A model generated the notes under the pieces. That model was not told where the DNA came from. It saw nothing but the letters and a program-made list of their open reading frames with translations, and did no database searches. The position numbers were made by a program, and so were the translations under genes. From Polytrichum commune (Eukaryota > Streptophyta > Polytrichopsida > Polytrichales > Polytrichaceae), in assembly GCA_950295325.1 (NCBI GenBank), contig OX485806.1:9300001-9364000 (forward strand): a DNA stretch of 64,000 bases. The letters run 5' to 3'. The number at the start of each line of letters is the position of its first letter. The stretch's first letter is position 1. Of the stretch, positions 3,956 to 56,672 are shown one piece after another.

Positions 3956-4066
3956 GGGTGGCTCAAATCCAAGGCCTTGACTTGGATCCCATGGGAACTT
4001 CAAGGTTAAGCCAAAATAGTACCCAAATGGGTGACCTTCCTAGCACTCGATTTTCCGGTGCACCCT
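3956..4066 (+). repeat. 5S-rRNA-derived dispersed element, copy 1
   Basis: The segment follows a plant 5S rRNA gene end to end: it begins GGGTGGCT, contains GGATCCCAT, then AAGGTTAAGC (A-box position), then AAATGGGTGACC (C-box) and ends GTGCACCCT. Compared with 5S it lacks 10 nt between the A-box and C-box. The tail ATCCACCCAATCATAG after the 5S-like end is shared with the copies near 6790 and 47495, so these are members of one mobile family (5S-derived SINE or Cassandra-type LTR remnant) rather than functional 5S genes. Confidence 0.7.
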
Positions 4067-4083
4067 ATCCACCCAATCATAGT

Positions 4084-5266
4084 TGGGGTACCGGTATCCA
4101 GTTGAATTATATATTTTCATCCAACCACATGGGAATGGAAGGGCTTGCCCTTGGGGAAGATAGATGCCTGCCATCTTCTCCGTTCGCGCCTGCTCAAGGT
4201 GTTCACCTTCGAAAGGAAGGTAGTAGTCGTCAAGACCCCTTGAATTCTTGAAATGCCCATTTAGAGATTGCACATAGATTTTAAACAACTCGAAAATGAA
4301 ACAACACCATAATTCACACCGATGCGCGACATCGGAGCCGTTTTTTGGTTTTCTTTCTCTCTTTTTCCAAGTAAAGTATGAGTGAGGGGCAAATTCTCCA
4401 TACATAGCCTTAGCACGTGTCTTTAAACACCGTTTTGAGTAACAAGTGTGGGAAATTATGAGTGTAAAACCCCGGTGAGTTTGCTTGTACGTTGGTGGGG
4501 TGTACCTTGTAAGTTCACCAACCCGTATCACCCCAACCCTCTCCATCCCATGATGCTAAAATGTACGTAGTTGGTTGATCACAAGTAGACTAGTGGTCAA
4601 CATCTACGAGATAGGGTTGCCGTCCTTGCATCATCATTGTGAAGAATCAAATAACCTTGGTGGTGAAAATTGTAAGGTAAAGTTTGAGGGACTCGTACAT
4701 TTCGGAAAAGGAGGATGGCCAACCTCTCTTTCCCAACATGATGCAGGCCGGAGCTTTGTGGTGTCTACCGCCGGAGGGGGCTCTCTATTCCGGGGAAAGG
4801 GAAAAAAATCCCCTCCAAATTTGTCACGTGTCGTGCTCACATTCACCAAGACCCACCTCTACATTTTACATGAAAATTATATTCTAGCGCATCTAAATAT
4901 AAAATAGAGAGCCTTCCACAAAATGTAAACTCAGCCATCGTGGATGAAGGGGTTCCAATGAAAAAAAAATCTCTATAAAAATTGAGGGCTGATTTTGTTT
5001 CAACTTGGTCTGGAATCGACCGAGTTGATTTATGTGGTGAGAATTTAGGAGTCGAAATGCTCAAAAGTAGACAGTTTCTGTTTGTTCCACATTATTTGAA
5101 CAATTCGTTGCATTTTTCTAGCTTCGTAACATATGAGTTTACGTAGCCACACAAAATTCTCATCCCACACACCAAGTCCTCTACTATATAAATGGCGGTT
5201 TGTTCAACAAAATAAACTTAATTCTTGGGTTTAAATGTCCGAAAGGCTCATTATGATTTTGAATAA
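4084..5266. other. Intergenic sequence with chance reading frames
   Basis: The longest frame (minus, 4040-4546) overlaps the 5S-derived element and shows no recognisable domain. No TIR or RNA gene was identified. Confidence 0.3.
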
Positions 5267-5530
5267 CGATGGATTCTTTCAATTCAATTTATCATTGGAG
5301 CGAAACTTCTACATAATCATATTTTTTGCAAAACTGTCATTTGGGATGCATTGCAAGATTATGGTAGGATTGCGTGGACTCTCAAGGATCTTGAAAAGGC
5401 CCCGGATGTGGTCTGTAAGGATGTCTTCAATGAATTTTGTTCGATATGGGGTGTCAAGAACCTTATTGTGACCCAAAGTAACTTAGTTGTCACTTGGATG
5501 AATAGGCCGCATATGAGCACCGTTTCTTGA
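5267..5530 (+). pseudogene. Coding-like fragment without a start codon
   Basis: An 88-codon open frame with no ATG at its front ends at TGA 5528-5530. Its latter part reads like real protein (for example WDALQDYGRIAWTLKDL and KDVFNEFCSIWGVKNL), with hydrophobic and charged residues in a helix-like spacing. I do not recognise the family. Just upstream an ATG-started frame (5235 onward) runs in another frame and could be the front part after a frameshift near 5290. It is best read as a broken gene or transposon-captured fragment. Confidence 0.35.
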
Positions 5531-5990
5531 TTTCCACTCGGGTTGCGTTGACTCACCTAAGTTGGTTGTTTTTGGGATTCCTTCTTGCAATTGATTTTTC
5601 AATTTGTGCTCCCAAAAAAAATTATGCAAAACTCTTTGATGTGATTCCTCATCAAACTCTTGAATTCCCCTCAATATCAATATCATTTGAAGAAGTTGAG
5701 CATAATAGCACATCTCCGGTTTGCACATGAAGGAAGAAATATGTGGCTAAACTACAATTTGACGATCATGTGATGTTTCAATTTTGTAATACAAACATAT
5801 ATGGCTTTTTTCAAAACACCTAGGAGAAGAAAAAAGGAAATTAAAAAAAAAACACAAATCTAAATTTAAGAACAACACGATGAAATGAATATCCTTGTTG
5901 GTGACATGGAGTATATGAAATACACATAAATCATGTCCGTGAACACATAACATTATTCATGTGCGTTACATTGGGTAGGGTGCATCAAGT

Positions 5991-6321
5991 TCAAACTACA
6001 AATTGAGAGGATTTCGACTTTTTAAAAGATTCAACAAATGTCTCGATAGGTTGGATTTTGTTGCAGTACGTTCTCCCAATTGTCCCAGACTTTCCAAATG
6101 GCGCCTTCACTGACTTCATACTCCTGCTCCAACGCATGCTTGCTCGCCAAGTTCGGCTTGCTCCACTTTGCAATGATTTCACATCGTTGGGCTTTTGTCA
6201 AGTGGGTTGCCTCAAGTTTCATATGTTTCCCATTGCGATTCATCAAATCAAAGGGTCTAGAAAGCGATATGAGTAAAGTACGCACCCACCAATTAAGTGC
6301 GCACCAACGGCTCCAATTCAA
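5991..6321 (-). pseudogene. Pogo/CENP-B-type HTH transposase remnant
   Basis: A minus-strand frame (6031-6321) contains LTKAQRCEIIAKWSK followed by ASKHALEQEYEVSEGAIW. This has the layout of the N-terminal helix-turn-helix (Psq/CENP-B_N) of pogo-like Tc1/mariner transposases: a first helix beginning after LT, then an S-hA-LA-EY-VS-I recognition helix. After about residue 88 the frame ends, and a second overlapping minus frame (5991-6182) continues as QPIETFVESFKKSKSSQF, which suggests a frameshift. No DDE catalytic domain follows. This is a truncated, inactive copy. Confidence 0.5.
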
Positions 6322-6339
6322 AGTGCATACTTAACCAGG

Positions 6340-6520
6340 AGATTATTGTAGTAGGTTCTCCCAATCATGTCGACCTTGAGCATGTGATAATTAGCATATT
6401 CAAAACATGCAGTCCAATCTCTTTAAAACACATTATTTTTGGTGTCCATTCTCATATCCACACCTAACCACATACCACTCACATGGGTTTTTAAATTCTT
6501 TATATGTTGGAATTATGCAC
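6340..6520 (-). repeat. R1 dispersed repeat, partial copy
   Basis: It carries the R1 phrases for 'ttctcccaatcatgt', the 'gtccaatctctt' segment and 'cacacctaaccacatacca'. Only the distal half of the repeat is present. Confidence 0.6.
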
Positions 6521-6789
6521 GTCTACCTTCGAAGACAATAGACAACTAGGATGTTGCCAATTTGGCATGATTTAAATGAATTTCCTTCTCTCCAAGTTGG
6601 TTGGTTTTGTAAGTCATATACAACAATCATCAGAAGAATTAGAGGGACCTTGAAGAATCGTTTTTCTCTATTCAACTTTGAACACCTTCTATGGATACAT
6701 ACAAAGTTGTCCACACCTACAACAAACCCCTGGATGCCCACATGGTTGAGTGAAATTATTTAGTATACCTAGAGACTCCCTCTATGATT

Positions 6790-6895
6790 GGGTGCACTAC
6801 ACTTTAAATGCTAGGAAAGTCACCCGTCCTTGCACTATTCTTGTCTTAATCCGCTTAACACTTAAAGGATAAGGAGTTTGTTTATAGGGTACACA
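6790..6895 (-). repeat. 5S-rRNA-derived dispersed element, degraded copy 2
   Basis: Read on the minus strand it shows GTTAAGCGGA at the A-box position, GGACGGGTGACTTTCCTAG at the C-box and the 3' side of 5S, and the GTGCACCCAATCATAG end shared with the other copies. The 5' half is degraded. Confidence 0.55.
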
Positions 6896-23537: not shown

Positions 23538-23789
23538 GAGCAAATGCACAATCAGTGGGAGTGCATGGAATTGCACTACCAATCATGGAAATGCAGTAGC
23601 AATCATGCACTCACATTTGCGTCGATGCCACCCACTCTTCCCTCTTGACGCCTGAAATTTACACACATGATGGTCGGACATGGTTGGACGTTTCAAAGTA
23701 GCAGGAGGCATTATTTCATTACAAGGACTGTCCCCTCTTCCAGAATCCTTGGCACTGGAGGACTCGTGAGAACAAAATTGTCACTACGC

Positions 23790-23990
23790 GGCCCCAATGT
23801 AGGGCACCTGCAGTCGTCTATCCAGAAGATCAAAATTGCCTATATGAAGTGCTTGCTTGTGTGGCTCCAATGTGGAGACGTAATGCTCAATTCCTTGGTA
23901 CAGAATTGAGACCGATGCTCTACAAAATTGATAGCCCCGATGTGGGGCTGCTCTCCGAATCATCTGCCTTTTGGCTCCAATGTGGAGACA
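23790..23990 (+). other. Cluster of five short hairpins beyond the HMA gene (left arm)
   Basis: GGCCCCAATGTAGGGC (about 23790), GGCTCCAATGTGGAGAC (23863), CTCAATTC..GAATTGAG (23886-23910), GCCCCGATGTGGGGC (23934) and GGCTCCAATGTGGAGAC (23973) are each self-complementary with a 3-9 nt loop. Four share the core CCRATGTRGRG. They lie 50-260 bp past the stop codon of the HMA gene, so they may be in its 3' UTR. Confidence 0.6.
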
Positions 23991-24045
23991 TGATCACTAA
24001 ACCTATCTATCTGTACAAATTCAGACTTATATACGTGCGGCTGCT

Positions 24046-24558
24046 TCAGTATCCATATTCCACCCGCTGCACATTGTTAGTGTCGAGTGTCATGTAGTGC
24101 GTGGAACTCGAGTCTCGGTAGCTTGGACAATAGCTCGAAGAATATGAAGACCCGCTGTTGGAAGGGTTCCTTTGTCGAGAGTGGCTTCTCTGCAGGTATG
24201 TGCCGCGGTCTCGGCATGTTATATCCGAGGGCAGGCACTCTACATCTGGGTAATGAGCGTGGGAGCTCTGAGATCGGAGTGCAGCGTGCCGCGCTCGCTT
24301 CAATGCTCGCATGGGATCCACGTAGCCGGTCACGAATAGCCTGTTCTTGTATGGGTCGCTCGCCACATCGACAACGCCTTCCAAGTCGAAGAGCGCCTCT
24401 CTGGCCTGCTCTTCGCATGCGGCGCAACACATGGCCACAGTCAACTCGAAAGTGGGAACCGCGCACCGCTCAGGCCGAGATGGGCGGCTTTGGGAGGAGC
24501 AGAATTGGCGCCTTGAGTCGCATTCTCCGTAGAAGAAATCAGTCATTGACATTGCCAT
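24046..24558 (-). CDS. HMA-domain metal-binding protein, copy 1
   Basis: This single-exon gene encodes 170 residues. Residues about 36-92 form a heavy-metal-associated (HMA, ferredoxin-like) domain: TFELTVAMCCAAC gives the MxCxxC metal site (M43, C45, C48), followed by an amphipathic helix (EEQAREALFDLEGV) and a second strand (KNRLFVTGYV). The C-terminal third is Ser/Tyr/Arg-rich, low in complexity and ends EYGY; there is no CaaX box, so it is an HPP-like rather than an isoprenylated HIPP protein. Known HMA proteins bind Cu(I), Zn(II) or Cd(II) and act as cytosolic metallochaperones or sensors. The start is in a GCCATGG context. The gene lies in the left arm of an inverted repeat and points outward. 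Its twin at 30897-31409 differs at only three residues. Confidence 0.85.
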   Translation of the reverse strand: MAMSMTDFFYGECDSRRQFCSSQSRPSRPERCAVPTFELTVAMCCAACEEQAREALFDLEGVVDVASDPYKNRLFVTGYVDPMRALKRARHAALRSQSSHAHYPDVECLPSDITCRDRGTYLQRSHSRQRNPSNSGSSYSSSYCPSYRDSSSTHYMTLDTNNVQRVEYGY

Positions 24559-24966
24559 GGCAATGTCGTCGAAGGTCGATGAACCTCTTGATCAACGCAG
24601 GTGTGACCTCCTTCCGCAAATGTGCAGGCAAGCGGGTTTTTCCGAGCCGACAATTGGGCGAAGCCTAAACCCTGAAGCTCTCGATGTGTGGGAATTGAAG
24701 CAGGGGTGAAATTCGTGGTGCGCTCGCATACGGGAAGAGCCTTCTCTCCTGCTTCTCGGGAAAATACTATGTCAATCTAGGTTCCAAGGGAAGAAACCCC
24801 TGAGTCGAGGTTTTGTGCCCGTTTTGTGAACCCGAAGGGGGTTTTTGCTGCTAAGGGAAGCTCGCTCTGCTGGGTTTCTTGCGCACTGGTGAGGAAATGT
24901 AGCAATCTCTCTCCCTTGCTTACCAACGGCAGAGAGAACTGACAAAACACGAATGGCTTTCTTCGA

Positions 24967-25173
24967 GTGGCAGGCTGGGCGGCGGACAACCAAATGCCAT
25001 GCGGGACCGATGTGCAGGCGATGCTCATATACTTCCTAGAGTGCAAGGAGTGCTTCGAGAAGGTGCGAGGTAGGCACGGATTCCCAGTGAGAGGAATGCT
25101 TACAGGATCGAGCTGTCTTGAGGAAGAATGTGACAGTTATGCAGATCGATGTGCACCGCTTGTTGAAACCTGA
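24967..25173 (+). CDS. Small Cys-rich open frame upstream of HMA copy 1 (uncertain)
   Basis: A 68-residue frame runs divergently from the HMA gene. From an internal Met it reads MPCGTDVQAMLIYFLECKEC, then a second Cys-containing part (SSCLEEECDSYADRC). It has a CxxC pair and an even spread of Cys. A GTGCGAG/GTAGGC donor-like and CTTACAG acceptor-like pair inside could remove a short in-frame piece. In the right arm the corresponding start region is deleted, so if it is a gene only this copy is intact. I do not recognise the family, and it may be chance. Confidence 0.25.
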   Translation: MAGWAADNQMPCGTDVQAMLIYFLECKECFEKVRGRHGFPVRGMLTGSSCLEEECDSYADRCAPLVET

Positions 25174-25419
25174 CAATCCGTGTGTACAGTAACAAATGTA
25201 TGCTACCGCTTGCCATGCCATGTGTACCGAGAGAGTAGTGAGAGGCTAGAGGTTGAAGAATGCAAGGAAGGACGTCCAAGATATATTTAGGAAGACGAGC
25301 TGCCTGCAGATTTCTGAAACGATGGCTCCTTCCTGGCATCTGCCGTGTCGTACCGCAGCCTGGCTTACTGACTTGTTGCCCACTTGCAGAATTCCTGTGG
25401 ACTTGCGGCGAGCAGGTCT

Positions 25420-31409: not shown

Positions 31410-31464
31410 AGCAGCCGCACGTATATAAGTCTGAATTTGTACAGATAGATAGGTTTAGTGATCA

Positions 31465-33664: not shown

Positions 33665-33699
33665 TTCACTCTTCAGTGCATTGCGGGCAAAAGGCGTGG

Positions 33700-33750: not shown

Positions 33751-33757
33751 GAAGTAA

Positions 33758-33805
33758 GAGGAGGAGGAGGAGGAGGAGGAGGAGGAGGAGGAGGAGGAGG
33801 AGGAG
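33758..33805. repeat. (GAG)n trinucleotide tract in the PPR 5' leader
   Basis: About 16 GAG units end 8 bp before the main start codon. If the frame is extended upstream it would encode poly-Arg, but there is no ATG upstream in that frame before the stop at 33648, so the tract is untranslated. Confidence 0.8.
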
Positions 33806-33812
33806 AAGAAAA

Positions 33813-36800: not shown

Positions 36801-38294
36801 CGGCACTCAACAACCTTTTAGCAAAATTTTATATAAGACATTTATTCTTGTGTACAGGTGCATCCCTCTTCATGTCAGCTCCTACTCTTTGACAATGAAT
36901 CTATGCATAATGATCTTGGTTCATCAAACATGTTAGTTTTCTTTCTGCTCATAGATGAATTCTTGTGTGCGGTTGGCAAGGTTGTCAGATGGTCAGGTTC
37001 ACTCATCATGGAACCTAGGTGCACTAGAATGTTGTATCTGAAACTCAACAACTTACATGACTAACCTGTACAACCCTTGTGTACAGCAAATGTGGCCTCT
37101 TTGAAGAAGCAGAGCTGGCATTCCAGGAAATGCAATGTCAAGGGCATGTACTAGATAACATCACCTTCAATGCCATGATTGCTTTGTATGGAAAAAGAGG
37201 AAGGGTGGACAAGGCTACTGAGACTTTAACGTTGATGAAGGCGACTGGATTGGCACCTGACCTTGTGACATATAACTGCATGATGAGTATGTATGGGCGT
37301 GAAGGGATGTATCGAAAAGCAGAGCAACTCTTAAGAGATATGGTTGAAACAGGAAATACTCCTGATTTGGTCTCCTACAACACTGTCATATTCTCATACA
37401 GGTCTGCACTCTCTTATCACTTCCTCAACCCTCTGGATCAGTGATCATTGGTGTCCTCCCCAGGATTCAGTAAACAATAGAGTCATCTGCTAGGAGTTTG
37501 GTACCTCTTTGAGGGACTTTTCTATTAAGAGCTGATTAGAGCATCTTGTGTCAGAGCCTAAGTTTGCAAGTGGGTGACACTCCTTGGACCTCCGCTTTCA
37601 ACTTAAAAACAATAGAGAGAACTTAGGATCTAAAACAGGGTTTAACCTAAATCTTGGTTCAGTCTACGCAAGGCTAGCTTGGCCCACTGATTCTAGTATA
37701 ACAACCTAGAAAGTTAGTTACTTATAGCCTGACCTCACTCTTTTAGCATGTTAGTTCAAGTCCTAAGAAACTCAACTTTTTCACCAACTCATCAGGAGTT
37801 TGACCCAGAGGCTTTACGGATAACTCTAATGGCTTCTCTCTTTTTCCAACAGATGTTGTCCCAACTACACAGGTCATGCAAGGGGACAGTGATATGTTCT
37901 GATAATTAAGAGTATGAAGTCACTTTAATATCTGATGATAAGTGGTGCTGATTGCAGCAAGCACGGACAAATGGATGAAGCAGCTCGAATCTTCCATGAG
38001 ATGGTCAGCAAGGGCCTTCAGCCTGATGCATTCACCTACAATAGCTTTGTGAGTTGCTATGCAAATCTGGGAATGTTTGCAGAAGCGATGGATGTAATCA
38101 AACACATGAAGAAAACTGGCTGCAGGCCAGGCGAGGTCACTTATCGCACCCTAATTGACGCATACTGCAAGTTGGGAAAGTTTTCAGAAGTGGACAGGAT
38201 CTTTCGATTTATCAAAGATTCAGACCCACATCTTGATAAGGCGGCGTATCGTAGAATAGCAGCACGGATTGATGAGTATGAGATGCGGTCTTGA
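33813..38294 (+). CDS. P-class pentatricopeptide-repeat protein, five exons (At5g02860-like)
   Basis: Exons 33813-35447, 36108-36194, 36469-36857, 37087-37401 and 37958-38294 join in frame to 920 residues. After an N-terminal low-complexity region (poly-Gln at about 32-50, acidic Glu/Arg/Gln segment at about 91-123), about 18 tandem 35-residue PPR motifs run from about residue 270 to the end; typical motifs are PSLVTYNVIIDLYGKKG and PDEYTYNTAI. The order and spacing match Arabidopsis At5g02860 as I recall it, including the junction EMMEIFEDMQ/ECDCEPDIVTW and the HSYANG and YSKCGLFEEAE regions. There is no E/DYW editing domain. P-class PPR proteins bind organellar RNA for stability, splicing or translation; the N-terminus could be a transit peptide, but this is inferred. 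Intron 1 has a GC donor; introns 2-4 are GT-AG. The start ATG is the first in frame after a stop at 33648. Confidence 0.9.
35410..35945. repeat. 265-bp tandem duplication across exon 1 end and intron 1 of the PPR gene
   Basis: Copy A (about 35410-35665) and copy B (about 35675-35945) are offset by 265 bp. Both contain GATATGCAGGCAA, that is the last exon codons plus the GC donor, then 'ctcgttctccctttcct', 'ttatccatttgcaaaggtgcaa' and 'ggctaccagttgg' segments. Copy B is thus a decayed duplicate of the exon end inside the intron. Confidence 0.8.
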
Positions 38295-39393: not shown

Positions 39394-39532
39394 GCATCCA
39401 TAACATTATTCAGATCTATAACAATGTTCTATGGGACTGACATTATTCCACATAATATTCTTCATATTAAGACTGAATATGGGGAATATTCTGTGGAATG
39501 TTGTCCATCCCATATAACATTGTTATGGATGT
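39394..39532. mobile_element. Small fold-back MITE (~138 bp)
   Basis: CATCCATAACATT at the left and ACATTGTTATGGATG at the right are inverted, and the interior is also self-complementary (ATTCCACATAATATTC against GAATATTCTGTGGAAT). The whole piece can fold into a long hairpin. Confidence 0.65.
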
Positions 39533-40889
39533 GAATCATGTTATGTCAAATGCTAATGTAGCTTAATAATAATAGCAACATATTTTCACACGTCACCTGA
39601 GGGCACTTCAAACGTGATCATTGCGTTCTAAGATCTCTCATTGGTCGAAAAGGCCGAGACCGTCCAAGTTCACTTCACACTAGTAGGTAGAGGGCTAAGG
39701 GCCCAAAGAAATTATCACGCATGAAAAGTCTACGTGGATTCTTATATGGCATACCATGTTAATGTTACGGCCTTTTGATGAGAATCAAAAGGGCCCTCAC
39801 ATTTGCACAGTCACAACAACTTGGTCAATGCATGAAGTGGCCATGAGTGACGGTGCTAGTAAGGCATCTTCAATTCAAGGTAGATTAGTTGTGTTTTTTT
39901 TTTTGGTGGATTGGATGGATTTTCATATTGACGTATCCAATAGGAAGTCGTCCCAACATTGGCTTCATCCACAAACCACTCCCATGACTTGAGGAGCCAA
40001 TTAGTCAGGCCATAGTGACATTCGGTTCTCTATGTCTTTCGGTGGGATGAGGGAGAGGACACATGATTGTAGCAAAAGGGTTACAATAGTGGTGACTAGT
40101 GGTGATTGATAGATGGTGATTGATAGATGGAGGTCACATTCCCAAAGTCCTAGATGAGTTTCAACGTAATACACATGTCAAAAAGGAACTCCATACTACG
40201 TTCTCGTATTTACTTGGAATGATTATGTTTTGCTCAACAATACAAGGAAATCATATGATATAATTAAGATCATATTGCCCAAAATCGTAATATATGGTTC
40301 GAATAAATGAACACCATTATGAAATTTCAGGGGGATTTGGGTTGTCCACACCCACTAAAGGGGGAAGGGATAAAAAATGTGCCATGTGGATTTGTTGTTG
40401 ACTCATCCACCATAACAATATATGAGGAGTGTTGGGGCACATAAGTGTGGGCCGATGAGGTGGACATAGTTACTTGTCCAACAATGTGATTGGACGGCGG
40501 GGGGAGGGGGTGTTTCTTTTTTGGAGTTGACAAGCTGAGTTGTGGTGGATGACTAAATGTGGGGATGGACACTCATGTTAAGTGGTTGCGGGGATTGGCT
40601 ATGGTTGGTCGCCAATCTTAGGTATATTGGTTGGTTCTTTCCTCATGCATGGTACTCAACCCCATCCCATTTGTCCAAGATAAGAGGTATTAAGAAGAGT
40701 TACAAGTAGTTAGCAAGATTACCACTAGGGGTTACAAGTAGTTGATTGGGTTGCCACCTCGGGGGGTTCACTAGCGAAAATCGTAGAACAACGTGCGATA
40801 AAAAATAGGGTCTAATATATTCATTCTAGATAAATTTTGTAAAAAACTTACATATAATATAGGGGGTTTTAAAATAGTGAAAAAGGATT

Positions 40890-40959: not shown

Positions 40960-42195
40960 ACCTTTATTTTGAAAAATACCATACCTTATAATCTTTTCTG
41001 CAAGGTAAATAGCCCCCCAATAAATAGGTCCCGAACGCACGTGTATGCAAAATACAAGAGGGAGTGAACCCCCCGAGGTTGCCACTAATCCATTTTTAAT
41101 CACTCGGCTACATAATAGCCTAGTTGAGTGCACCCTTGAGGCTTCGTAATACTAGTTTTGAGATGCCTCAAAGAATCAAAGCGATGACTTATACAAAAGA
41201 ATACACTAGAATATTATGCACAATTGGTCTAGTTCTTTCACTCTTCGATGTTTGCATGTGTTGTGGAAATTGTTGAGAGTGTTGTGCTTGCACATTTAAG
41301 TCTCTGGTAGAGTCTTGTAAATGTGAAAGTGATATTGTTACTTCAACCTTTCAGAGTAATAGGTGTTGGTGACGTCTCAATCTCCATGTGTTTTTTCTTT
41401 CCTAAAATATTTATGAGGGGTGTATGCCATATCAATAGAATGCCCAATATACAATATCCTAGCAAAAGTGGGACAGTTCTTATCTTTTTCTTCCAATACC
41501 CAAGTCACTACATGACCTTTGTTACTCTTAACAATGAATTGTTGAAATGGTAGTTGCCCACCTTTACTCATTGGATATTCAAGTTACCTTTGTGGTAAAA
41601 TATTAGTGAAATGGGACATAAATTCACTTGGGAACATGCTTGAGAGCGTGCTTGGGATCGTGTTTGAGACGTGCATAACTATGGATAATGAAGTAGTATA
41701 GTCAATTGAGACATGCCGTATGTGCAACATGTGCACTGAATACTCGTGAATAATATCACATTTGTAATGGATTCATAATGACTTATACATATGAATACAC
41801 AATATGACATGTCTAAGCACTACACATATTTTAATATAATATATTTAGAACATCTTCGTCTTATTGAATGGCCATATCATTCTCATCTTCATTTGTGCTA
41901 AAAACTACAATCACTTGATGACTACTTAAAACCGCGACCTCGTTTAATTTTGGATCAATTGATGTTGTATCTTTGTCTAACAATCAACGTTTGAATTTCT
42001 TGGACCAAAAACCTCCAAAAGAAAGAAACTCGGAGCTTGCTCAAACAACACATGCATCCGACACCCAAAGACTGCAACCAGAAGGTTTGGAAGGCTTGAT
42101 TACATTTAATCACGCTTAATTGGTTTGAATGCGTATGAATACTTGTGAAAGTACAAGACAATACCTATACTACCATTGAATATACACACTATTGT

Positions 42196-42660
42196 TTTTG
42201 GGGGTGTTTTTTGCTTTGGGCTTCACCCGAGCTCCATTGGCTCCTATTGTTGAGCTTCAATGGCATACTTTTGAGCTTCATTGGCTCTTGTTTTGGGGGG
42301 TGTTTTGCTTTGGGCTTCACCCCAGCTCCATTGGCTCATATTGTTGAGCTTCAATGGCATATATTTGAGCTTCATTGGCTCTTGTTTTGGCAGGTGTTTT
42401 GCTTTGGGCTTCACCCGAGCTCCATCGGCTCATATTGCTGAGCTTCAATGGCATAATTTTGAGCTTCATTGGCTCTTGTTTTGGCGGGTGTTTTGCTTTG
42501 GGCTTCACCCGAGCTCCATCGGCTCACATTGTTGAGCTTCAATGGCATATATTTGAGCTTCATTGGCTCTTGTTCTATCGGGTGTTTTGCTTTGGGCTTC
42601 ACCCGAGAGCTCCATTGGCTCGTACTGTTGTGCTTCAATGGCATATATTTGAGCTTCTTT
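42196..42660. repeat. 94-bp tandem array, five units
   Basis: GCTCCAT(T/C)GGCTC recurs at 42231, 42325, 42419, 42513 and 42609, giving periods of 94, 94, 94 and 96. On the minus strand the units encode peptides such as EAQSKTPAKTRANEAQ, but 94 is not a multiple of three, so frames rotate between units. Confidence 0.92.
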
Positions 42661-43191
42661 GGCTCTTAGGCCTTGAGCGCGTCTTTTGTGCACGTCAAGA
42701 CGTTGTTGCCGAGCTTCAATGGCATATATTTGAGCTTCTTTGGCTCTTACGCCTTGAGCGCGTCTTTTGTGCGCGTCAAGACGTTGTTGCTGAGCTTCGG
42801 CAGCTCTTTGGACTTTGGCTTGCTTCGCGGCTTTTGCCTTGGCGAGCAAGCTGGCCATGCTAGGAGCGTGGCCTCGCTCCATGGGAATGGAGCTTCCATA
42901 GAATTCTCGCTCTGGAGTGGGATCCGATGCCACCTCCGCCACCAATCGGAGGCACGGCAAGCGTTCCTCTTTGCAACTCATTTCGAGCGAGCTGGTTTTA
43001 TGTGTGGTTCCAAATGTAGTAGGGCGAGGCAAGTCAGGGCGCAAGGATTTCAACCCGACACCTCGTGGGTTGTTGAGGAAGTGCCTTTCTGTTGCCTCTC
43101 CTTGAGAACCACGCCCACGGTATTCAATGGGTGTATGTGTAGGGCGAATATCACAGAGACCTTGCAGCTGCGGTGACAAGGCCACCCCCAT
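42505..43191 (-). CDS. Hypothetical protein with helical 27-residue repeats
   Basis: A 228-codon frame, one of the longest here outside the recognised genes. Residues 1-115 are non-repetitive (for example TPEREFYGSSIPMERGHAPS). Then an Ala/Lys/Gln/Arg-rich helical region contains two direct 27-residue repeats (AKEAQIYAIEARQQRLDVHK type), encoded by an 81-bp tandem repeat, and finally runs into the 94-bp array. The composition suggests a long alpha-helix or coiled coil. I do not recognise the family. It could be a decayed gene whose 3' end expanded into a tandem array, or an accidental frame; the exact 81-bp period supports past selection for frame. Confidence 0.35.
   Translation of the reverse strand: MGVALSPQLQGLCDIRPTHTPIEYRGRGSQGEATERHFLNNPRGVGLKSLRPDLPRPTTFGTTHKTSSLEMSCKEERLPCLRLVAEVASDPTPEREFYGSSIPMERGHAPSMASLLAKAKAAKQAKVQRAAEAQQQRLDAHKRRAQGVRAKEAQIYAIEARQQRLDVHKRRAQGLRAKEAQIYAIEAQQYEPMELSGEAQSKTPDRTRANEAQIYAIEAQQCEPMELG
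42641..42805. repeat. 81-bp tandem repeat, two units and a partial third
   Basis: GCATATATTTGAGCTTCTTT occurs at 42641 and 42722, and CGTCAAGACGTTGTTG recurs with the same 81-bp offset. The period keeps the minus-strand reading frame. Confidence 0.85.
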
Positions 43192-43275: not shown

Positions 43276-43556
43276 GATCACAACAACTCTGCCGCACAAT
43301 GCTACGATGAGCGAGAGAGAGACACAGATAGATCACAACAACTCTGCCGCACAATGCTACGATGAGCGAGAGAGAGACACAGATAGATCACAACAACTCT
43401 GCCGCACAATGCTACGATGAGCAGAGAGAGACAGATAGATCACAACAACTCTGCCGCACAATGCTACGATGAGCGAGAGAGAGACACAGATAGATCACAA
43501 CAACTCTGCCGCACAATGCTACGATGAGCGAGAGAGAGACATAGATAGATGAGCGA
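43276..43556. repeat. 55-bp tandem array, five units
   Basis: GATCACAACAACTCTGCCGC starts at 43276, 43331, 43386, 43438 and 43493. Each unit ends in a GA-rich stretch (GAGCGAGAGAGAGACAC). A degenerate continuation reaches about 43700. Confidence 0.92.
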
Positions 43557-43974
43557 GAGAGACACGGATAAATGCTTCACTGCGATGAGCGACAGACCCA
43601 GACAAGTGCTTCTGGGCTTAAGGCTCTCCTCACACAACCTGCAAAACATATATGCCGCACCACCGCTGATGAGCGAGAGAGAGAGACACGGGAAAATGCT
43701 TCTGCGCTTAAGCCTTTTTTCACTTTATGGGCCACTCGTTGGTGGCTTCTGTAACCTAGGACTACTCGGATTCATCTGAGCCCTCTATACACATCTGACG
43801 GTTCAGATGTCATCTCTGTCACAACGTGGGCCCTATCAAGTGGTAGTCAGGTACCTTGGGTCCCAAACCTAACCAGATATCCACAGAATAAAGATGACGT
43901 ATCTCAACTCTCGTAGATATGACGATACCATATTCGTAGATATATGGATCTATGACACACTATGGTTGTCAGGT

Positions 43975-44350
43975 AGAGGGGTCTTAAATGGTTATTTTTT
44001 GCCAACTGGCTCACCTCTTCTCCTAGGGTATGAAAACACACTATTCTATGATCATGGTTGGCAATTGCAAACCAATGCCATCGCCACTTTCCTCATAATT
44101 TTCGGACCTCGCATGAATATCTCGTTCATTATCCAACTCAAGACATTCGTGCTTGTTAAATGGTCATAGAGCTTCCCCCAATTATGTTGATTGTTCAACC
44201 TAGACTAGTTATCAAAAAATTGAGCACGTCGTCCAGTTTATTTTAATCACATGTCTTTTTGGTATCCATTCTTGCAGTTAGACTTCACCACTCATCATTG
44301 AATACAGGTGTCCCATCATCAAGACGACAAATGAATTAGGCACGTTTTCC
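43975..44350 (-). repeat. R1 dispersed repeat, near full length
   Basis: It starts at GGTCTTAAATGGTTATTTTT, contains the central 'gagcacgt.gtccag' segment, and ends at 'gaattaggcacg'. It defines the approximate full length of R1 (~375 bp). Confidence 0.65.
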
Positions 44351-44459
44351 TTAATTTCACTCTTTGGCAGTGGAAATGCGTTGCTCGTATTAAACAATTT
44401 AAACAATTAAACGCTCACAAGTGTCACTCCTTCAGCATCGCCTTCATATGATATATTGT

Positions 44460-44800
44460 TGTCTATGGATCACGCTACGAATATTATGATGAAAGGTTCG
44501 GCACCCACTTCTTCAAGGAGACGAAACATGCAATCAATGCGAGTTCTCTTAGCCAATCTTGCAACTTTGGCTTGTAGCCGTTTTCCCCGTGGCTTTCGGA
44601 GCTCCTATGAATATGTCGACCGTTATCATCCAAACAAAGATTTTTTTTCATCGTAATAGCTGACCATATACCTCCCCCGCCACCCAATTATATTGACTAT
44701 TGACCGTAGAATGGTTAGCAAATTGTGAGCAATTAATCTAGTTTCCCTTAAAGACATGTCTCTTTGGTGTCATCTCCCACTCCAAAAATACAATACCAAA
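44460..44800 (-). repeat. R1 dispersed repeat, diverged copy
   Basis: It keeps 'ggagctcctatgaatat', 'tattgactattga.cgtagaatggttagcaaat' and 'tctttggtgtc' in order. It lies 110 bp after another copy. Confidence 0.5.
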
Positions 44801-46079
44801 CGTAAGACAATGATTATCTAATGAAACATCCATCTGAAATGGTTGAACCTATTTTGGGACGCACCCTAGATCACAGAGGCCCAAATTACACAAGTCCTCA
44901 AATGCCAATATGGTAGATATATGGGCAATTACGCGGGGCGGGGTGGGGGGGGGGGACACAAAATAAAGTCAAAACAAATCCTCAAATAAAACATATCACC
45001 ACTCTATAACCTATGCCCACCCAAACAATACGACGTTTGTCTTCACCTTCTCTCATGTTGCACAAAAAAACACATCAACAATCTTTGCACTAATCGACAC
45101 AATAAAAGCATTCCATGGCTTGGCGAACACCCTACTATCACACCCCTCAGCACAGTGCTTCACACTCATTAGTGTCGTTAGACTCAATGGATGCACACTG
45201 GACACACAAAACCCACAAAGCTCTTGGAAACATATCTCAAATCTCTATTTGATACCTCACACACATACCTCAATAAAAGGAGACTGGAAAAGAAACAAGC
45301 ACCAATTTCATTACACTAAATTATTCCACCCCACCTCTACTTTACCCCAATAATGAAAAAATTAATATACTACAATCCATCCATGAAAATAGGGATTAAA
45401 CCACAACCTACCCACGGCCACGTGGCCATTACAAGGAGGAGGCGAACGGACATCACATTTCAGATGTAATACAAACACCAATGTTCTTTTTTCCCTTCTT
45501 TACTTTTCTCTTCTTTTCTTTCTACTGATGCTATAGATTGGTGAAGATTTGCAAATATAATATGATCTTGAAGTGATCAAAATGTCACAATGTTGTTGAG
45601 ATATGAGCATTTCATGAGGTTGAGAGGATAACCATGCACGTGACGTCATGATCAAGCTTTTAAAGGCGACATACAAAATTGAATGTTATGTCTAGTGAAC
45701 AACAAATGGCTAAATAATAGCGAAATCCAAGGGGCATTTATGTTGCAGTCACAAATGTCCTCTTAGGCATATGTATGTTCAAGAAAAGTTTCTATTCTAA
45801 CTTAGGCTCACATAACTTAAGCCCACACTTAGCTTATGGCTTGCTGCTTACAAACTCTTAACATTCCAATGCAAATGACTCAAATGAAACTCATCAAAGT
45901 CAACGTGAATTGACAACAGTCAACAATTTATGATTCAAGAGTGAAATGCAAATTTGTATCCCTTTGACAAATGCAAATCGTGCATTTTGGGTTCATCTTG
46001 CCATCTGAACCTAATAATACTTGAATCTTACAGTGTTTGGGGCACAAAACTCCAGCAAGAGAGTGAACGGGTTTAAGGT
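44801..46079. other. Intergenic sequence, nothing recognised
   Basis: A G run occurs at about 44940-44955. No gene or element could be supported. Confidence 0.3.
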
Positions 46080-46430
46080 AGAAATGCCTTGAATGGATAC
46101 TTTCCTCTCTGCGCCCACTTCTCATAGAGTATGAAACACAATTAGTGTGTAATAATAAGAAAATCCGAGTTGTGCTCTTAGCCATTTGCCTCATAAATTT
46201 TAGAGCTCATATGGTAATCTTATTCATTATCAAAGTGAAGATTCTCGTGCTCATTAAGTAGGTCCTCCCAATCATGTTGACTATTGAGTCTAAAATGATT
46301 AGCATATTTTGAGCATGTACCAAAATCTATTTTAACTACATGTTTTTTGTTTTTTGGTGTGTCTTCTTAGATCCACACCTAACCACATACCTCTCAAATA
46401 TAGCTATGTTGGATTTAGGCACATCTACCT
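46080..46430 (-). repeat. R1 dispersed repeat
   Basis: A clear copy from 'gcgcccacttctcatagagtatgaaacac' to 'ggcacatctacctta' type sequence. Confidence 0.65.
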
Positions 46431-46894
46431 TACAAATAAGTAAACAAGATGATGCTGATAGCAACATCCAGTACACAGGAAGCACAACACTTGGAGAACA
46501 CTTGGACACAGATGTTTGGTACAATTTTACGTTGAATGATGTGAGCGCCACCTAGACATTGTAGATTACAAAAACACATGGAACATGTGTATCATGAATG
46601 ATTCCCACATAATCCAAGGTCCAAAGATTACGATAGCAAATATAAAATGGGTAAAACAAATGCTAAACACTGGATCTGGGCCGAGCTGACTTGTGAGGTC
46701 AGCCCTCTTATGCCGAAAAATGTCTCTCTCTTTCTAAGAGACGACAATAATTTCCCCCAAGTGGAGCTAGGCACTAAGTCAAGTAGCTTCAAATACATGG
46801 CTGCTTGTGGGTATTTACAACTATCATATAGTTACAAAGGATAAGACTGCAATAGAACTTCCAACAGAGGTGATGACAAAGTAGAAGGTTTTTG

Positions 46895-49800
46895 TCAAGA
46901 TGATTCGTCAGTAAGAAGTGGCGCTTCTTGAGACTTGTATGGTTGGTCACTGTTAAAGCCAACATCTTTGACTCCATCGTTTTCTAAAGTCAGGAACAAA
47001 GCCCCTGCATAAAGCATGAAACATCTCAATAAGTAAATCATCACCGAAGTACCTTTGTGCAAAATGACCTTTGCTCAACATGAACCGAAGACTTTCATGT
47101 AAACCCAATACGGAGAGGATAATTTGTTAAGAGAATAATTTACCAGCTCCCCAAATGGCAGCAGCAAGATAGAATATGGAGGTCAGAAGCAGCGTGGTGA
47201 AGCGCCAGTTATGTACCCAATCCTGTGATAAGAGAAGGATAAATCCCAAGTTAGGAACAAAGTGCAAAATCTCACAAACAGGTAATTCATTTTGAACAGA
47301 CGGAGTAGATTTTTTTTTTTTCCTTTAATGAGTGATGATGCCACCGGCTTGAATTCTGGTGTTGCTTCATCTTCACTAAGTTGGACTGATTCTATATGTA
47401 ATTCGAAACAAACATCACAAGGTTCCTACATGGTTGGTTGAAAATATTCAATTCACACTGGATACTTCCACTATGATTAGGTGGACCATAGCAGTAGGAT
47501 GCACCGGCAATTAATTGCTAGGAAGGTCGCCCATTTGAGCACTATTCCGGCCTTAGGCGGCTTAACTTTGGAGTTCCCATAGGGTCATGGTTAAGACCTT
47601 GGGTTTAAGGCATCCCCAAGTAGAGAACATAACAAAGGATGGAGACAATTCCAATTGTAAGGTGGGCATGCCTAAATCAAACATAGTAATAATTTGGATG
47701 ATGTATTTGAGTGGTATGTGGTTAGGTGTAAATCTAAGAACAGCCACCAAAAAACCATGTGTTTAAAAGAGATCGGACTACATGCTCAAAATATGCTAAT
47801 CATTCTAGGCTCAATAATCAACATGATTGGGAGGACCTATGTTGCCACTTGATGAGCATGAGAATCTTCACTTTGATGATATATAAAATATTCATTAGAG
47901 CTCCGAAAATTGTCGCTACAGGTGCGGTTTCATTTTGCTAATCATCTCGCACTAATTGCGTGTTTCATATCCTACAAGAAGTGGGTGCAGAGAGAAAAGT
48001 ATTTGAATAACACACATTTACCTTAAATAAGCGATCCAACGGAGAAACTACATGGTAATAGACGTAGAAGGAACTAGCAATGAAGTGAGGGAGTACCTGA
48101 AAGGCTCCTACAATAGGAGACGAGGGAACGTCTCCAAATACATGTATAAACACCGTTGACATAGCCATGGCAAGTGGCATTAGAGTAGGGCTTACACTGC
48201 GTAAAGAGACAAAATTCACAGGTCCCTGCCAGCCAAACATCATGCTATTATCAATACAAATTGCAAGGCCTTCACATAGCCCTTAATAACCATGTTAGCC
48301 ATAAAAACCATTGTCCACCTGCAATGATCTAAAACTAGAATGTGTGGATGACATATTTTGAACAGGTCACCACCAATGTTGGACTAGTATATAGGTGAAT
48401 GCATGGTATCAATACACGATATTAATAGTGGTATCAAAGAACCTACCTAACCGTTATCAAGCCAATATTCGTACTTGGTGGGTATCACAGGATGAGAGAA
48501 TCTTTGTATACCCAAGTTATTATTTGGGTCAATACCATCCTAATACCATATTGCTACTAGGGTGAATTTACCTAGGTTTGAAGTTCCTTGGATGGTACAT
48601 AGACCCCAATGGTATTGAAACAAAAGAGCCTTCAAATACGTGTACCCTACCGGTGTCAAACAGATGTAAAAACTCATTATATATATTACAAGTTGCAACA
48701 GCGTTTACATGGACTTCTGTGAGAGACGACATAAACATGACTTACCTGAGTGGCAAATAAGAAAAACTCTCCAATTGCAAAGAGAGGAATAAAGACTGTC
48801 AAGCTCCGTGACATGAATGCTATCAAGCAACCCGAGGCACCCAGTGCTGTCGCCAATGCAAGCAGCTGTTTTACCCACCACAAAAAATGATAAAAATACT
48901 CACTTGTACTCCTTCAGATAACTTAATTATGTAATCTCCACCGAGGAATTATGAACTAAACGGGGAACTCACAATTACACCCAATAGCATCTTACTTGAG
49001 GTAAAACTCTCCCATTATCAATATGCAGCATCTAAGTTTCATTTTCTTGCAAAAATATCTTCTGATCTAACCAAAGACCTGATTGATCTCAGAAGATTCA
49101 TTTTCAAAAGACACTACAATTATTGCTGATGGAAAATCATAAAACAAAAGACAATTGCGCAAGGCAGCACACAGCACACCTTGAATGCATTCCGAACGGT
49201 GGACCCAATATAATCCAAGAAAAGACCACCACATATTGTGCCCACAAGTCCAGCAAATATGGTTACACCTCCGAATACCACATCTGCATTCTCCTGTTCA
49301 TTTGCACATTTCCATACATTTATGAGCTCATTCATGTAAAGCATCTGACACTCTACATTGAGTGGCCTTCAGCTTTCTATAAGAGAGCCAAATAGAAAAA
49401 GAAAATGCATGTTTCATGTTCTCTCTGCCATTAAGTTCTCTACAAGCATCTCTACAAATATCAAGTAATGCCTCTAAAAGCCTAACGAACTTCACAAATT
49501 TTATAGTAAATATGAAGTTAAGGTCACAAGACTGTAAAGAGACATCTTCAAGAAGCAACTTGGTGCAACTGAATAATTGATCACAGCCATATAGTCTACA
49601 CTCATCCATAAGTTAAAGATTTGTTCACAAAGAAGTTGACATGTGTGTATGATATTCAAGAGATATCAAATCTGTCAATTAGGGTGAACACTTTTGAGGT
49701 TCTAAGGCGAAAGCATACCATGTTGAAGATTGCTTGACCTGCCTTTGGACCCCAATAAGCATAGGCACCCAACACGAAGTTGTAGACAATGTAACCTGCA

Positions 49801-52800
49801 GACAACCACCAATACTTAAAGTCAATAATTTGCAACAGACAACCTCAACGGAAGCTTCACTTCCTGGATGGGTTCCACTTCAGAAATGTGGGCTTCAAAA
49901 TGCGGTGACAAGAATGGCAATGCAATAAGGTAAGGGGACCTAGTTCGGTTACTTATCTCAATCAGGGCACCTATATTTGAGTGGTGTCTGATTCTGTGTA
50001 GATCTAAGAATGGACACCAAAAGGACATGTGCTTGAAAGAAATTAAACGTACTCAAAATTTGTTAACCATTCTAGACTCAATAATTAACACAATTGGAGA
50101 AACCTACATGATTGCTAAATATGAAATTCTTCAATTTTATAATTGCCGTGATATTTATGTGAGCTCCAAAAATTATGAGGAAAGTGGCTACAACCTCGAC
50201 TTGGATTTGCTAACCATCTCACCCCAATTTCGAGTTTAATATCCTCAGAAACCTGGGTGCAGAGCTAAAAGTGTCTAATCTAGGCCCACTTACCTTACCA
50301 CACAAATTGATATAAAGTAGACAATCATGAAAATAGAGCTACTTGCCACTACGGATGACTACAGTGTGATGGGATAAACTCAATACCTAAAACATTAGTG
50401 GTATAAGCTTTGGACAGCCCAAGCTCCTTGACATCTTCCAGCACACTGCTCAGTTGTGGACCTGACAAAACTCTTGTAGCCCAAAAGAAATTGGAATATC
50501 AGTACATGGCCTCAAACCTGGAAAATAAGACTTCAGACAGCCAACCTAATGTGATTTTACAAGAGAAACCACTCCTCAAGGATTGCAAAACAAGGTTGCA
50601 CTAAACAAGGAATGTGAATGACAGAAACTCACTGACTCTTTCCATCATCCCCTCCTAGTGGTTCATGCAGAGTTTCAGCCACGTCATCTATCATGGAAAT
50701 CTTCATTGTTAGTTTCCAAGTATACACAAATGTAACAAAGTGTAGAGCAACACAGAAGGTTGCTATGCTCAAAGTCAAAATTGGTCATAAAATTGAAAAA
50801 GTGATACATCGGCAGCATCTAAGTCAAGCTCTGCTCCTGCCCTAAGGAAGCAACACTACTCAAGCAGCACCCCTATGGAACAGTCAACCATGAATGATAT
50901 TTGCATAGTAAAGAAGTTAATGACCAAACAACAAACCTCCAGCTGGTGTGTCCTGGGTTTCTAAGTCAGATTGTGGAATGATACTAGCCTCCTTTGCACC
51001 TCCTGTTTGGATACCAGATAGAAATAGAATGCATCAGCTAGGTACATACACAAATCAGGATTCCATGTACATGAATTTTGAGAGAAATACTTTCTATCCT
51101 GGTCCACCAGAATGTACACCAGGTTAGGAGGATGTTGGTCATAAAGGATAGTGTATAGTTAAATTTCTTGTAATGCAAACTGCACTCTCATCCGATCTAT
51201 CACGCTAGCATTTTGGAAAGTCATGGACAATAGACTTCACACTAGGAAGCAAGGGCAAAAAATCAACCAATTTAAGGTGAGCTAAATATGATTCGATGTC
51301 ATAAACCATATAACATATTATGTCAATACTAGTCCGGGGTTCATACATATTGTCACATATCCCATATAAATACACCACTGGTCTTTCAAGGGTGATGTGC
51401 CAAAAAGTCTCACAAAGGAAGTCGCCTGAATTTTCCTTGGCTGCCTCCTAAAGAACACCCTTTAGGGCCACCTTAGGGCCAATGTGAAGACTCGACCACA
51501 AAATGTGCTCAATCTTGACCTGGCTTGCCTGGACGCCTTGTATAAAGCAGCTCTAAGACTGTATTCTGAGGCCTAACTGATTTTTTGCAAAGGAACAGCC
51601 CCGGCACTGGAACAAAGCACAAAGCAAGACAAGTGGATTACCTGTCAAATAGATTCGATCTGACACAAAACCAAAGATAGCAAATGGTAGCATAAGCAGG
51701 CTCTCAATCCAAAATGCAGCCCGCCAGCCCAAAGCTCCTCCAACCTGCATTATTAGATGGAAAATCCATACCAACCCACTCTCAAAAAGTGGACTCAGAA
51801 ACAGAAACCACCACAGAAGTTTACAAACTTCTTCAAGGAAAGGATAAATCACTGACAAACTCAGGCATCCAAGATAATTATATCCACTGCTAACTAAAAG
51901 GACTGAAAAGAGAGAAGAACCCTGGCTATGTTCACTTACCACACCTCCATACACATAGCCTATGGCAATTCCTACTGGTATGAACATGTAGAAGATCGAA
52001 AGCCATGCTGAACTCTGCAATCCAACCATCTGGCCACATTAGCAGCATGCCCTCAAAGAAGAATTTTCATCACAGAAACTACACCTCCAGCAAAGCGGAC
52101 AAGAAAACAATGTGATCATGCACCCATTGGAATCAAACAAGGAATTATGAACCAATAGAACCAACCTTCAATGCAAACAAGTTATTTTCCATAAGAGACA
52201 TATATTGGAGTATTTCATCACAGAAACATGCCTCTAGGAATGAACACGAGAACAAATGTTGATCAAGAACCCATTGGAATCAAACAAGAAATATGAACCA
52301 AAAGCACCGACCCACAGTTGTAAGCAGCTTATTAATAATGATAGAGCCATGATCAAACAAGAAATATGAACCAAAAGCACCGACCCACAGTTGTAAGCAG
52401 CTTATTAATAATGATAGAGCCATGATCCAAAAAAGCTCATGAGTCCAAGACAGCAACTGGCTGCCAGTCAGACCTTGTAAATAGACTTGTATGGAATTTA
52501 TCTCTAAGAGTTCTACCTGAGAAGGTGGGGCAACATCAAGAATAAAGGGAGCAGCAAGGCTGATAAAAGATGCCTCTCCCACTCCAACCAACCTGCAACA
52601 GCCATAACCTTATTGATTATGTTCTACTATCCTTGTGAAATACTAATCTATGAAGTCACAAGAAAAGCATGCACAGTTTTCAGGCCAGATATATGATGGG
52701 TGTGCATGAAGGGTGTAATACATGTAATTGTTTACTTACATTCGAAAAACTGTGATGGACCAGAAACCGGTAGAAAAACCACAGCCTGCTGTCGCAAATA

Positions 52801-54450: not shown

Positions 54451-54690
54451 TATTGACTTTTTTCATTCTAGGGCCGCTTTGTTGGAGAGGAGATAAAGTT
54501 TGTAAAGGACACTAAGTACCTAATGTACCTTCTAAGTTACATGTTCTACATTCTTTACACTAGACATTTATTTATTTATTTATGAGTATGGCTCATGCCA
54601 ATGACTTGTGACACCTATGTACATATGTTGAAGGTGACAACATTGGGAACCCTTCATAGATCGGATTTTTAAGTTACTTTGACTCAAAAA

Positions 54691-55287
54691 CTACACTAAA
54701 TAATACATTCGTTGTCATATCATATTTTATGTCATTATGGTAACTTGTTCAATGACACTTCTAATGAATAGGTTTATAAGTATTATCATCCCAAATTACT
54801 TTTAGTTCACCCACTCTTAGTTTGGTATATGTATCATGCATTCTAAACTTTTGTGATGAACAAATGATTGAAAATTGGATAAAAAATTGCTCGGTAAGTG
54901 ATAATCATTGCATTATTGTAAATCTAGAATACCCAATTTTTCTATACAAGGATTGGTAAATAATATAAGGTTTATATCTAGTATGGTGACGTTATCTATG
55001 TGCTTTACAACTACACTTTTTCAATCGATTAATGTCGGTAACCATTTGGAGTTACACATTGCTATAGTATTTTAGTAAGAGTACCAGTTTTTGCCCAAAT
55101 AACATACATAACTAATATGCACATCAAAGACACACGATATAACTTACTTGATAAAAAAAGGTCAATGTCGGCAAAAAGTTATAGCAACACATAACTCCAA
55201 ATGGTAACCCACACTAATAGGACGATTTGGTGTAGTATTGAGCAAGACAAATAGAATTGGCAACACTAAATACAATATTTAATGTAG
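54691..55287 (+). mobile_element. CTACACTAAA-type MITE, copy M4 (~597 bp)
   Basis: The left end is CTACACTAAATAATACATTC and the right end is AATATTTAATGTAG. It is twice the length of M1-M3, with an extra internal segment around 54990-55200 containing two related 'taactccaaatggtaaccca' inverted pieces, suggesting a nested element. Confidence 0.65.
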
Positions 55288-55444
55288 TGTACTCGAGAAG
55301 ATTGAATTTGGATGCATCGATCATAAACTTGAAAGGGTCGGATTTTAACCAATATTTTTAACATGGGTTTCATGAATTATATGTTGTAATGTTGTCCATG
55401 CTTTAGATTAGAAAAACAAAATTCTAAGAAAAAATCAAACACGC

Positions 55445-55478
55445 ATGCGCGCGCACGCACACACGCACACACACACAT
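55445..55478. repeat. (CA)n/(CG) microsatellite
   Basis: A CGCGCACGCACACACGCACA-type run. Confidence 0.85.
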
Positions 55479-55499
55479 TGTGGTTGCACTGCTTGGTCA

Positions 55500-56566
55500 A
55501 GGACTCGAGACACTCATGTATGTTGAAGGTGACAACGTTGGGAATTCTTATTAGCTCAAGGTTATTCTTTAAAATTTATTTGCTTGGAAGTAGAATTAAC
55601 ATTAAAGACCCTAAATTAATTGAGTAAGTGTGAATTGGGATGCATCGGCTGCAAACTTTAAAGGGCGTTTTTTTTTATCAAATTCCTTAACATGGGTGTC
55701 ACAAATCCTTAGCCATTGAACCATGCAGTTGGTGTATGTAATGGATGTCCAGTAAAATAAGCTATGGTGGTTGCCCCTAACTATGACCAAGTCATCATCA
55801 TGTGAATCCACATTTTGTGAGTTGAACTCCAAACTCAAAAAATGAGGGAAAGACTTGGGGTTCACTTTCAATGTCATTTCTTCATATTCAAGCAAAGTTT
55901 TGTTGAAAATTTCCCAAAAGTCAAGACCTTGTTTGGAAAGTTTGTTAAGCTTATTATGGCCATTGTGACCTCGAGGTGTGCATGGCCATGAAATTGGAAA
56001 ATGGAGACCACCCATGATATTAAAGATAGTTGAGCCCGACATGACCAACATTCTTTTAAAATCGACATTTGCATGTGCACGCCATTAAATTTAGAGAACA
56101 CCCAACAATCAAAAGTTGAAGTTTTGAAGTTGGGGCACCTTAAGAAAACGACGTTTCTCCAATTTTGGGTGACACGATGAATGAAATTGTTGGGTAAAAT
56201 CGGATCTAGATGTATATTTGTTACTTCATTTTTTGATAGGCGTGTGAGAAATCCAAGTTGTCATTCATATTCCAAAGGTGGTCAAAGTGCATTCAATGTG
56301 TAGCTACATGTAGTGAGTGTCTCTCGGATTCATTGTAAGCATGTTTGGGTTGGTCCAAATCGTAAAACATGATGATTCTCCCTTCATTCTTGGAATAGAG
56401 CTAAGCAGTAGGACACTATCCATGGTCAAAGTGTCTCTTATCCATGTTGGACCCCATCTCAACCCCGATCAATGTCATCTCACATGGTATGTATCTAAAC
56501 CCAATCCAATTGAGTGAAATTGGTTTAAAAAAATAAAAATAAAAATAAAAAACTATGTTCATATGA
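55500..56566. other. Intergenic sequence, no gene recognised
   Basis: A 146-aa minus frame (55611-56051) shows no recognised domain. A-rich (AAAAAT)n lies at about 56527-56552. Confidence 0.3.
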
Positions 56567-56672
56567 GGGTGGCTTAAACCCAAGGCCTTAACATGGATCC
56601 CCTAGGAACTTCAAGGCTAAGCTTCTTAAGGCCACAACAATACTTAGATGGGTGACCATTGGAACATGCCAC
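56567..56672 (+). repeat. 5S-rRNA-derived dispersed element, copy 4
   Basis: It opens GGGTGGCTTAAACCC, contains GGATCCC, AAGGCTAAGC (A-box position) and TAGATGGGTGACC (C-box). From GGATCCC to GGGTGACC is 63 nt, identical to plant 5S rRNA. An A-rich run precedes it. The 3' end beyond the C-box is diverged. Confidence 0.75.

Follow-up and report, generated by a model that had tools for sequence, protein, structure and literature searches.

A probable family of decayed 5S rRNA-headed short interspersed elements in the nuclear genome of Polytrichum commune

Short interspersed elements (SINEs) with a head derived from 5S ribosomal RNA (rRNA) are known from fish, mammals, insects and fungi (PMC3747384, PMC3272025, PMC5063351; here and below, each cited paper is represented by part of its text). 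In the portions of the literature covered, the only plant mobile elements described with 5S sequence are those of Cassandra, which have it in their long terminal repeats (LTRs). Annotation work on plant SINEs provides for 5S heads, and no plant example is named in the part of it used here (PMC8825457). A 5S-headed plant SINE is also absent from the matches listed in the open-access literature, subscription papers and Repbase lying outside this scope. A stretch of 64,000 nucleotides from Polytrichum commune (contig OX485806.1, positions 9,300,001 to 9,364,000; hereafter the window) contains four dispersed loci with similarity to 5S rRNA, which were compared within this window and are numbered copies 1–4 by position (Table 1). 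They probably represent a decayed, SINE3-like family of 5S rRNA-headed SINEs in a plant nuclear genome.

The SINE3 types of zebrafish (SINE3), moth (HaSE3) and Aspergillus (AfuSINE3) have the layout also read for the P. commune loci, with a 5S-derived head (here at or near the 5' end) and a non-5S body behind it. AfuSINE3 is 259–343 bp long and 50–65% identical to 5S, compared with ~280–390 bp for copies 1–3 and ~52–60% identity here (PMC5063351). The likeness is one of layout and, for AfuSINE3, also of size and degree of 5S identity; the P. commune loci differ in their plant host and in showing a duplication at one copy only. Of three HaSE3-type copies, two are reported to have duplications (19 and 8 bp) and the third to have none (PMC3272025). 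With Cassandra, a terminal-repeat retrotransposon in miniature, the loci share the plant host, the dispersed distribution, the non-coding nature and the 5S internal promoter. Cassandra has a tRNA-Met primer site and its 5S region lies at 25–75% of the LTR, never at the ends (PMC10853983), whereas the P. commune loci show no LTR pair, no primer site in a copy and no mid-LTR 5S sequence, and have a 13-bp duplication at copy 4. In Ajax of nemerteans, which has 5S sequence in its LTR, a 5S promoter was likewise captured by a non-autonomous retroelement, but Ajax is an LTR element with 5-bp duplications and contains the promoter part of 5S only (PMC10886601). ARAGORN finds no tRNA gene in the window, which distinguishes the loci from the tRNA-headed plant SINEs. 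The heads of Au, p-SINE and ZmSINE are of this tRNA-derived type. These plant SINEs often end in T or A runs (PMC3747384). The idea that a TFIIIA exon underlies the similarity was rejected, as there is no C2H2 motif match in the six frames of the window. The 5S-derived exon of plant TFIIIA, a single gene exon, is a precedent for plant DNA having taken up 5S sequence.

All four loci are more similar to 5S than shuffled sequence is. In local alignments to the Arabidopsis 5S gene, copies 1–4 score 60.5, 53.0, 82.0 and 62.0, while the means of 1000 dinucleotide shuffles per locus range from 23.6 to 25.4 (z of 8.2, 7.0, 12.5 and 8.7); at each locus, 0 of the 1000 shuffles reach the observed score. 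The possibility considered in the original prediction, that the similarity might be no better than that of shuffled sequence, is thus not borne out. When the window was scanned on both strands in 200-base stretches, the 12 top-scoring stretches were all located within the four loci (best per locus, copies 1–4: 60.5, 58.0, 82.0 and 62.0). The next locus, at 23101, has a score of 48.5; it was dropped as a candidate fifth copy because of this score and because the family profiles miss it. The structure-aware Rfam 5S model (gathering cut-off 38 bits) aligns to copy 3 with 21.7 bits (E 5.8 for the whole window, E 0.015 for 161 bases) and weakly to copy 4 with 14.4 bits (E 1.3 for 161 bases), both below the cut-off, and no Rfam match exceeds the gathering thresholds anywhere in the window. 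Two exact patterns taken from the heads, meant to reveal contaminating plant copies, gave 0 matches each in public prokaryote contigs and in viral contigs. We read the four loci as real but heavily decayed 5S sequence.

How far each locus follows 5S varies. It had been predicted that all four track 5S from the first to the last base. They are the best 5S matches of the window, but in copy 4 the 5S-like sequence reaches the C-box end (position 92) and ~position 100 at most, after which a different tail begins; the start of copy 2 aligns poorly and its GGATCCC block is lost. The predicted distance of 63 nt from the GGATCCC-like block to the C-box end was measured in copies 3 and 4, as in 5S; it is 53 nt in copy 1. 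A preferential conservation of A-box and C-box is not clearly seen. Counting aligned positions only and excluding deletions, the identities to 5S at positions 30–49, 50–64 and 80–97 are 15/20, 7/8 and 14/17 in copy 1, 8/13, 11/13 and 15/17 in copy 2, 13/20, 10/15 and 13/18 in copy 3, and 14/20, 10/14 and 13/17 in copy 4; in copy 1, 7 of the 15 positions between 50 and 64 are deleted.

The heads are related to each other beyond their relation to 5S. Copies 1, 3 and 4 are mutually 72–82% identical, with copy 2 being more distant (53–62% identity to the other copies), and the identity to 5S is 52–60%. In 84 comparable columns, copies 1, 3 and 4 have 18 identical departures from 5S in common, against a mean of 0.5 under a null of independent change that ignores mutational bias (0 of 20000 draws as high); the departures are counted from Arabidopsis 5S, from which the host 5S may differ at a few sites. 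The heads of copies 1, 3 and 4 hence descend from one 5S-derived ancestor that had already diverged. This bears on the possibility that the loci are independent 5S rRNA pseudogenes, of retro- or segmental origin, with no mobile family behind them. Copy 4 on its own would suit a 5S retropseudogene, but the 18 common departures and the non-5S body common to copies 1–3 argue against separate origins; independent pseudogenes were therefore rejected and are very improbable.

This body begins where the 5S part stops, includes the tail CACC(C/T)AATCATAG and runs on to ~4348, 6537 and 47334 in copies 1, 2 and 3 (~280, 250 and 160 bp); copy 3 lacks ~95–110 bp of the middle that is present in copy 1. 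Held-out profiles, built from two copies and searched for the remaining ones across the window, recover the relationship. Built from copies 1 and 3 alone, the full-length profile finds copy 2 at 6861–6539 (E 6e-25) and copy 4 (E 1.5e-20), its 3' part finds copy 2 at E 1e-4, followed by an unrelated stretch at 41130 (E 0.017), and the 3'-part profile of copies 2 and 3 finds copy 1 at E 2e-6. Except for copy 4, a profile of copies 1–3 finds no further copy below E 5 in the window. The 5S similarity above shuffles, the 18 shared departures and the shared body together support a dispersed family with a 5S-derived head, as had been predicted, including a non-5S tail in at least three copies; sequence is thus shared outside the 5S-like core.

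An apparent insertion boundary is seen at copy 4, which lies between two exact 13-bp direct repeats (Table 1). The 13-mer occurs only twice in the window, and 0 of 2000 shuffles match the repeat. The left repeat ends at the first 5S-like base, so that the duplication boundary places the 5' end of copy 4 at 5S base 1; copies 1 and 3 are alike further upstream. Outside tandem arrays and simple repeats, the window has nine 13-base repeats at 100–450 bp spacing, that of copy 4 included (list read by eye), and with so few of them, the coincidence of the repeat end with 5S base 1 is unlikely to be due to chance. The original prediction had named duplications of 7–20 bp at the copy ends as a mark of SINEs: one was found at copy 4, but none at copies 1–3, and no second terminal repeat was found.

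The arrangement suggests the following mechanism. TFIIIA, TFIIIC and RNA polymerase III (Pol III) would be recruited by the A-box, intermediate element and C-box, which form the 5' internal control region of 5S origin, and Pol III would start at 5S base 1 and continue into the body. The reverse transcriptase of a long interspersed nuclear element (LINE), a presumed partner acting in trans, would then copy the predicted transcript of up to ~390 nt, with a putative 3' end, into DNA at a nick in the chromosome, leaving a target-site duplication. A Pol III transcript from 5S base 1, combined with target-primed reverse transcription, would predict exactly the 13-bp repeat layout of copy 4. Copy 4 itself may be a shortened or chimeric copy. 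Pfam detects no LINE domain in the 10 examined of the 21 open reading frames of at least 130 aa. RNA folding gives z values of -1.5, -1.2, -2.8 and -0.4 for copies 1–4 (17, 29, 3 and 66 of 200 shuffles fold equally well), and in the minimum-energy folds a helix of 5–6 bp pairs the first bases with a later part in copies 2, 3 and 4, but not in copy 1; the folds were set aside as evidence because only copy 3 clearly beats the shuffles.

As Cassandra is a known plant element that carries 5S sequence (PMC10853983), copies 1–3 could also be decayed solo LTRs or fragments of such a miniature LTR retrotransposon, with copy 4 as a separately retroposed transcript of it. A TGTCT motif near the start of the likeness upstream of copies 1 and 3 would suit an LTR that begins ~30 nt ahead of the head. 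The window has two sites within 2 mismatches of the tRNA-Met primer motif, neither of which is inside a copy; one of them, at 48429 (+) with 2 mismatches, is located in block A of copy 3 (see below), but ~800 bp separate it from that copy, which is on the other strand. An all-against-all comparison (E 1e-4) reveals no second same-strand copy near any locus and hence no LTR pair, and the heads are at the 5' boundary or at most ~31 nt from it, these boundaries resting on three copies. A head at or near the 5' end and the missing second terminal repeat therefore fit Cassandra poorly. The 13-bp duplication is also unsuited to an LTR integrase. Integrases of this type leave duplications of 4–6 bp. 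A Cassandra-type origin is thus unlikely, and the copy 4 duplication, which adjoins 5S base 1, favours, without proving it, the SINE interpretation, which the original prediction had listed as one of the alternatives. That interpretation stands with the qualification that one of four copies has a duplication, that this copy is without the shared body, and that a larger duplicated unit may include copies 1 and 3.

Several observations weigh against a SINE family. The duplication (copy 4) and the shared body (copies 1–3) never occur in the same copy. Copies 1–3 have no detectable duplication (their scores are equalled in 1447, 1693 and 769 of 2000 shuffles), which may be due to decay of these highly diverged copies. 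A tail-like T6 run is found only at the 3' end of copy 1, and T4 runs, which are possible Pol III stops, lie inside copies 1 and 3. Up to E 10, the Rfam model gives no 5S match for copies 1 and 2. The full-length profile of copies 1 and 2 picks up the 3' part of copy 3 only at E 0.004, the matches listed for their 3'-part profile do not include it, and single-sequence 3' queries among copies 1–3 give E 0.0012, 0.0021, 0.026, 0.41, 1.9 and 2.2. In addition, profiles containing copy 2 also match a second repeat family (described below), because the copy 2 stretch supplied ran into that family.

A further difficulty for the SINE interpretation is the sequence upstream of copies 1 and 3. A short stretch directly before the heads is alike in both (only 3 of 2000 and 4 of 2000 shuffles as good in two tests), the likeness between copies 1 and 2 being marginal (50 of 2000), and a longer block A precedes both copies in the same orientation. 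At copy 1 it starts 993 bp and ends 697 bp before the head; at copy 3 these distances are 1029 and 748 bp. This similar spacing, together with the upstream stretch, is what would be expected if the 5S-like stretch were just one part of a larger repeat or segmental duplication, made up of block A, a spacer and the 5S-like part, that travelled as a whole, with copies 2 and 4 as the only separate events. However, the spacers of 697 and 748 bp do not align except for the short upstream stretch, block A has no match within the compared 2.3 and 1.5 kb upstream of copies 2 and 4, and the profile of copies 2 and 3 also terminates in copy 1 at 4348. Copies 2 and 4 would still require a 5S-derived mobile ancestor. 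This explanation is distinctly unlikely. The upstream likeness points either to an old duplication that already held the element or to a unit larger than a SINE; copies 1 and 3 may thus belong to a larger duplicated unit and, if a single event produced both, the number of independent insertions falls to three.

The origin of Cassandra is debated, and one proposal is the insertion of a SINE3 into an LTR (PMC10886601). A plant SINE3, if confirmed, would allow this proposal to be tested, as the departures from 5S of the two elements could be set side by side. That the P. commune loci represent an abundant and ancient family (four recognisable copies per 64 kb), the first of its kind in the plant kingdom and possibly the kind of element that gave Cassandra its 5S promoter, is a tentative and rather doubtful proposition. 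A plant SINE3 would also call for caution, as 5S-like matches in plant genomes may be SINE heads.

Table 1. Coordinates of the 5S-headed copies, their flanking sequences and a second repeat family in the window
Feature	Position	Strand	Remarks
Copy 1	3956..4348	+	longest copy, 393 bp; head 3956-4066, non-5S body to ~4348; terminal T6 run
Copy 2	6537..6895	-	359 bp; degenerate head 6790-6895, body to ~6537
Copy 3	47334..47615	-	head 47496-47615 (Rfam model positions 1-120), the best of the four; body ~160 bp
Copy 4	56568..56691	+	124 bp between the 13-bp repeats; 5S-like head through C-box; tail not found in copies 1-3
Left 13-bp direct repeat ATGTTCATATGAG	56555..56567	+	exact; last G is also 5S base 1
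Right 13-bp direct repeat ATGTTCATATGAG	56692..56704	+	exact; read as target-site duplication of copy 4
Upstream stretch, copy 1	3925..3948	+	matches copy 3 upstream 47650-47628 (-), 19/24 aligned columns
Block A	2963..3259	+	70% identical to 48365-48646 (-), ~298 columns, E 7e-39
Second repeat family	47655-48027, 62667-63041, 46072-46435, 25390-25774, 43964-44353, 44450-44821, 49926-50308, 62154-62582, 61712-62060, 6323-6529		plus fragments

The second dispersed repeat is ~375–470 bp long and very abundant, with 15 profile matches below E 1e-10 in 64 kb (profile built from 10 of them). Upstream of copy 3, a gap of ~38 bp separates that copy from the end of one member of this family; at copy 2, the start of another member overlaps the 3' end or lies no more than ~10 bp from it. 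A partnership of this family with the 5S-headed copies was considered and set aside, as it lies on different sides of copies 2 and 3, as its consensus contains no tRNA according to ARAGORN, and as a self-reverse alignment score of 18, for which no control was run, is unconvincing as terminal inverted repeats.

Other repeats in the window include an inverted repeat of ~1.9 kb (23581–25460 and 30029–31874), which is 95.5% identical over its length and 98–99% identical in pieces; its arms are far more alike than most other dispersed repeats of the window. One arm contains an open reading frame with a sub-threshold match to a heavy-metal-associated domain. A near-palindrome of 147 bp (39399–39545), 83% self-complementary and matching Rfam mir-1422 below the cut-off on both strands, looks like a small foldback element. 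Tandem arrays are located at 891–1890, 42189–42793 and 43276–43605, with units of 250, 94 and ~55 bp. The pentatricopeptide-repeat family is very large in land plants, and long reading frames of this type at 33651–35498 and 36445–36936 are the basis for regarding the window as nuclear. A further such frame is at 35430–35935, and the frame at 33651–35498 has a direct duplication with ~265-bp spacing at its end.

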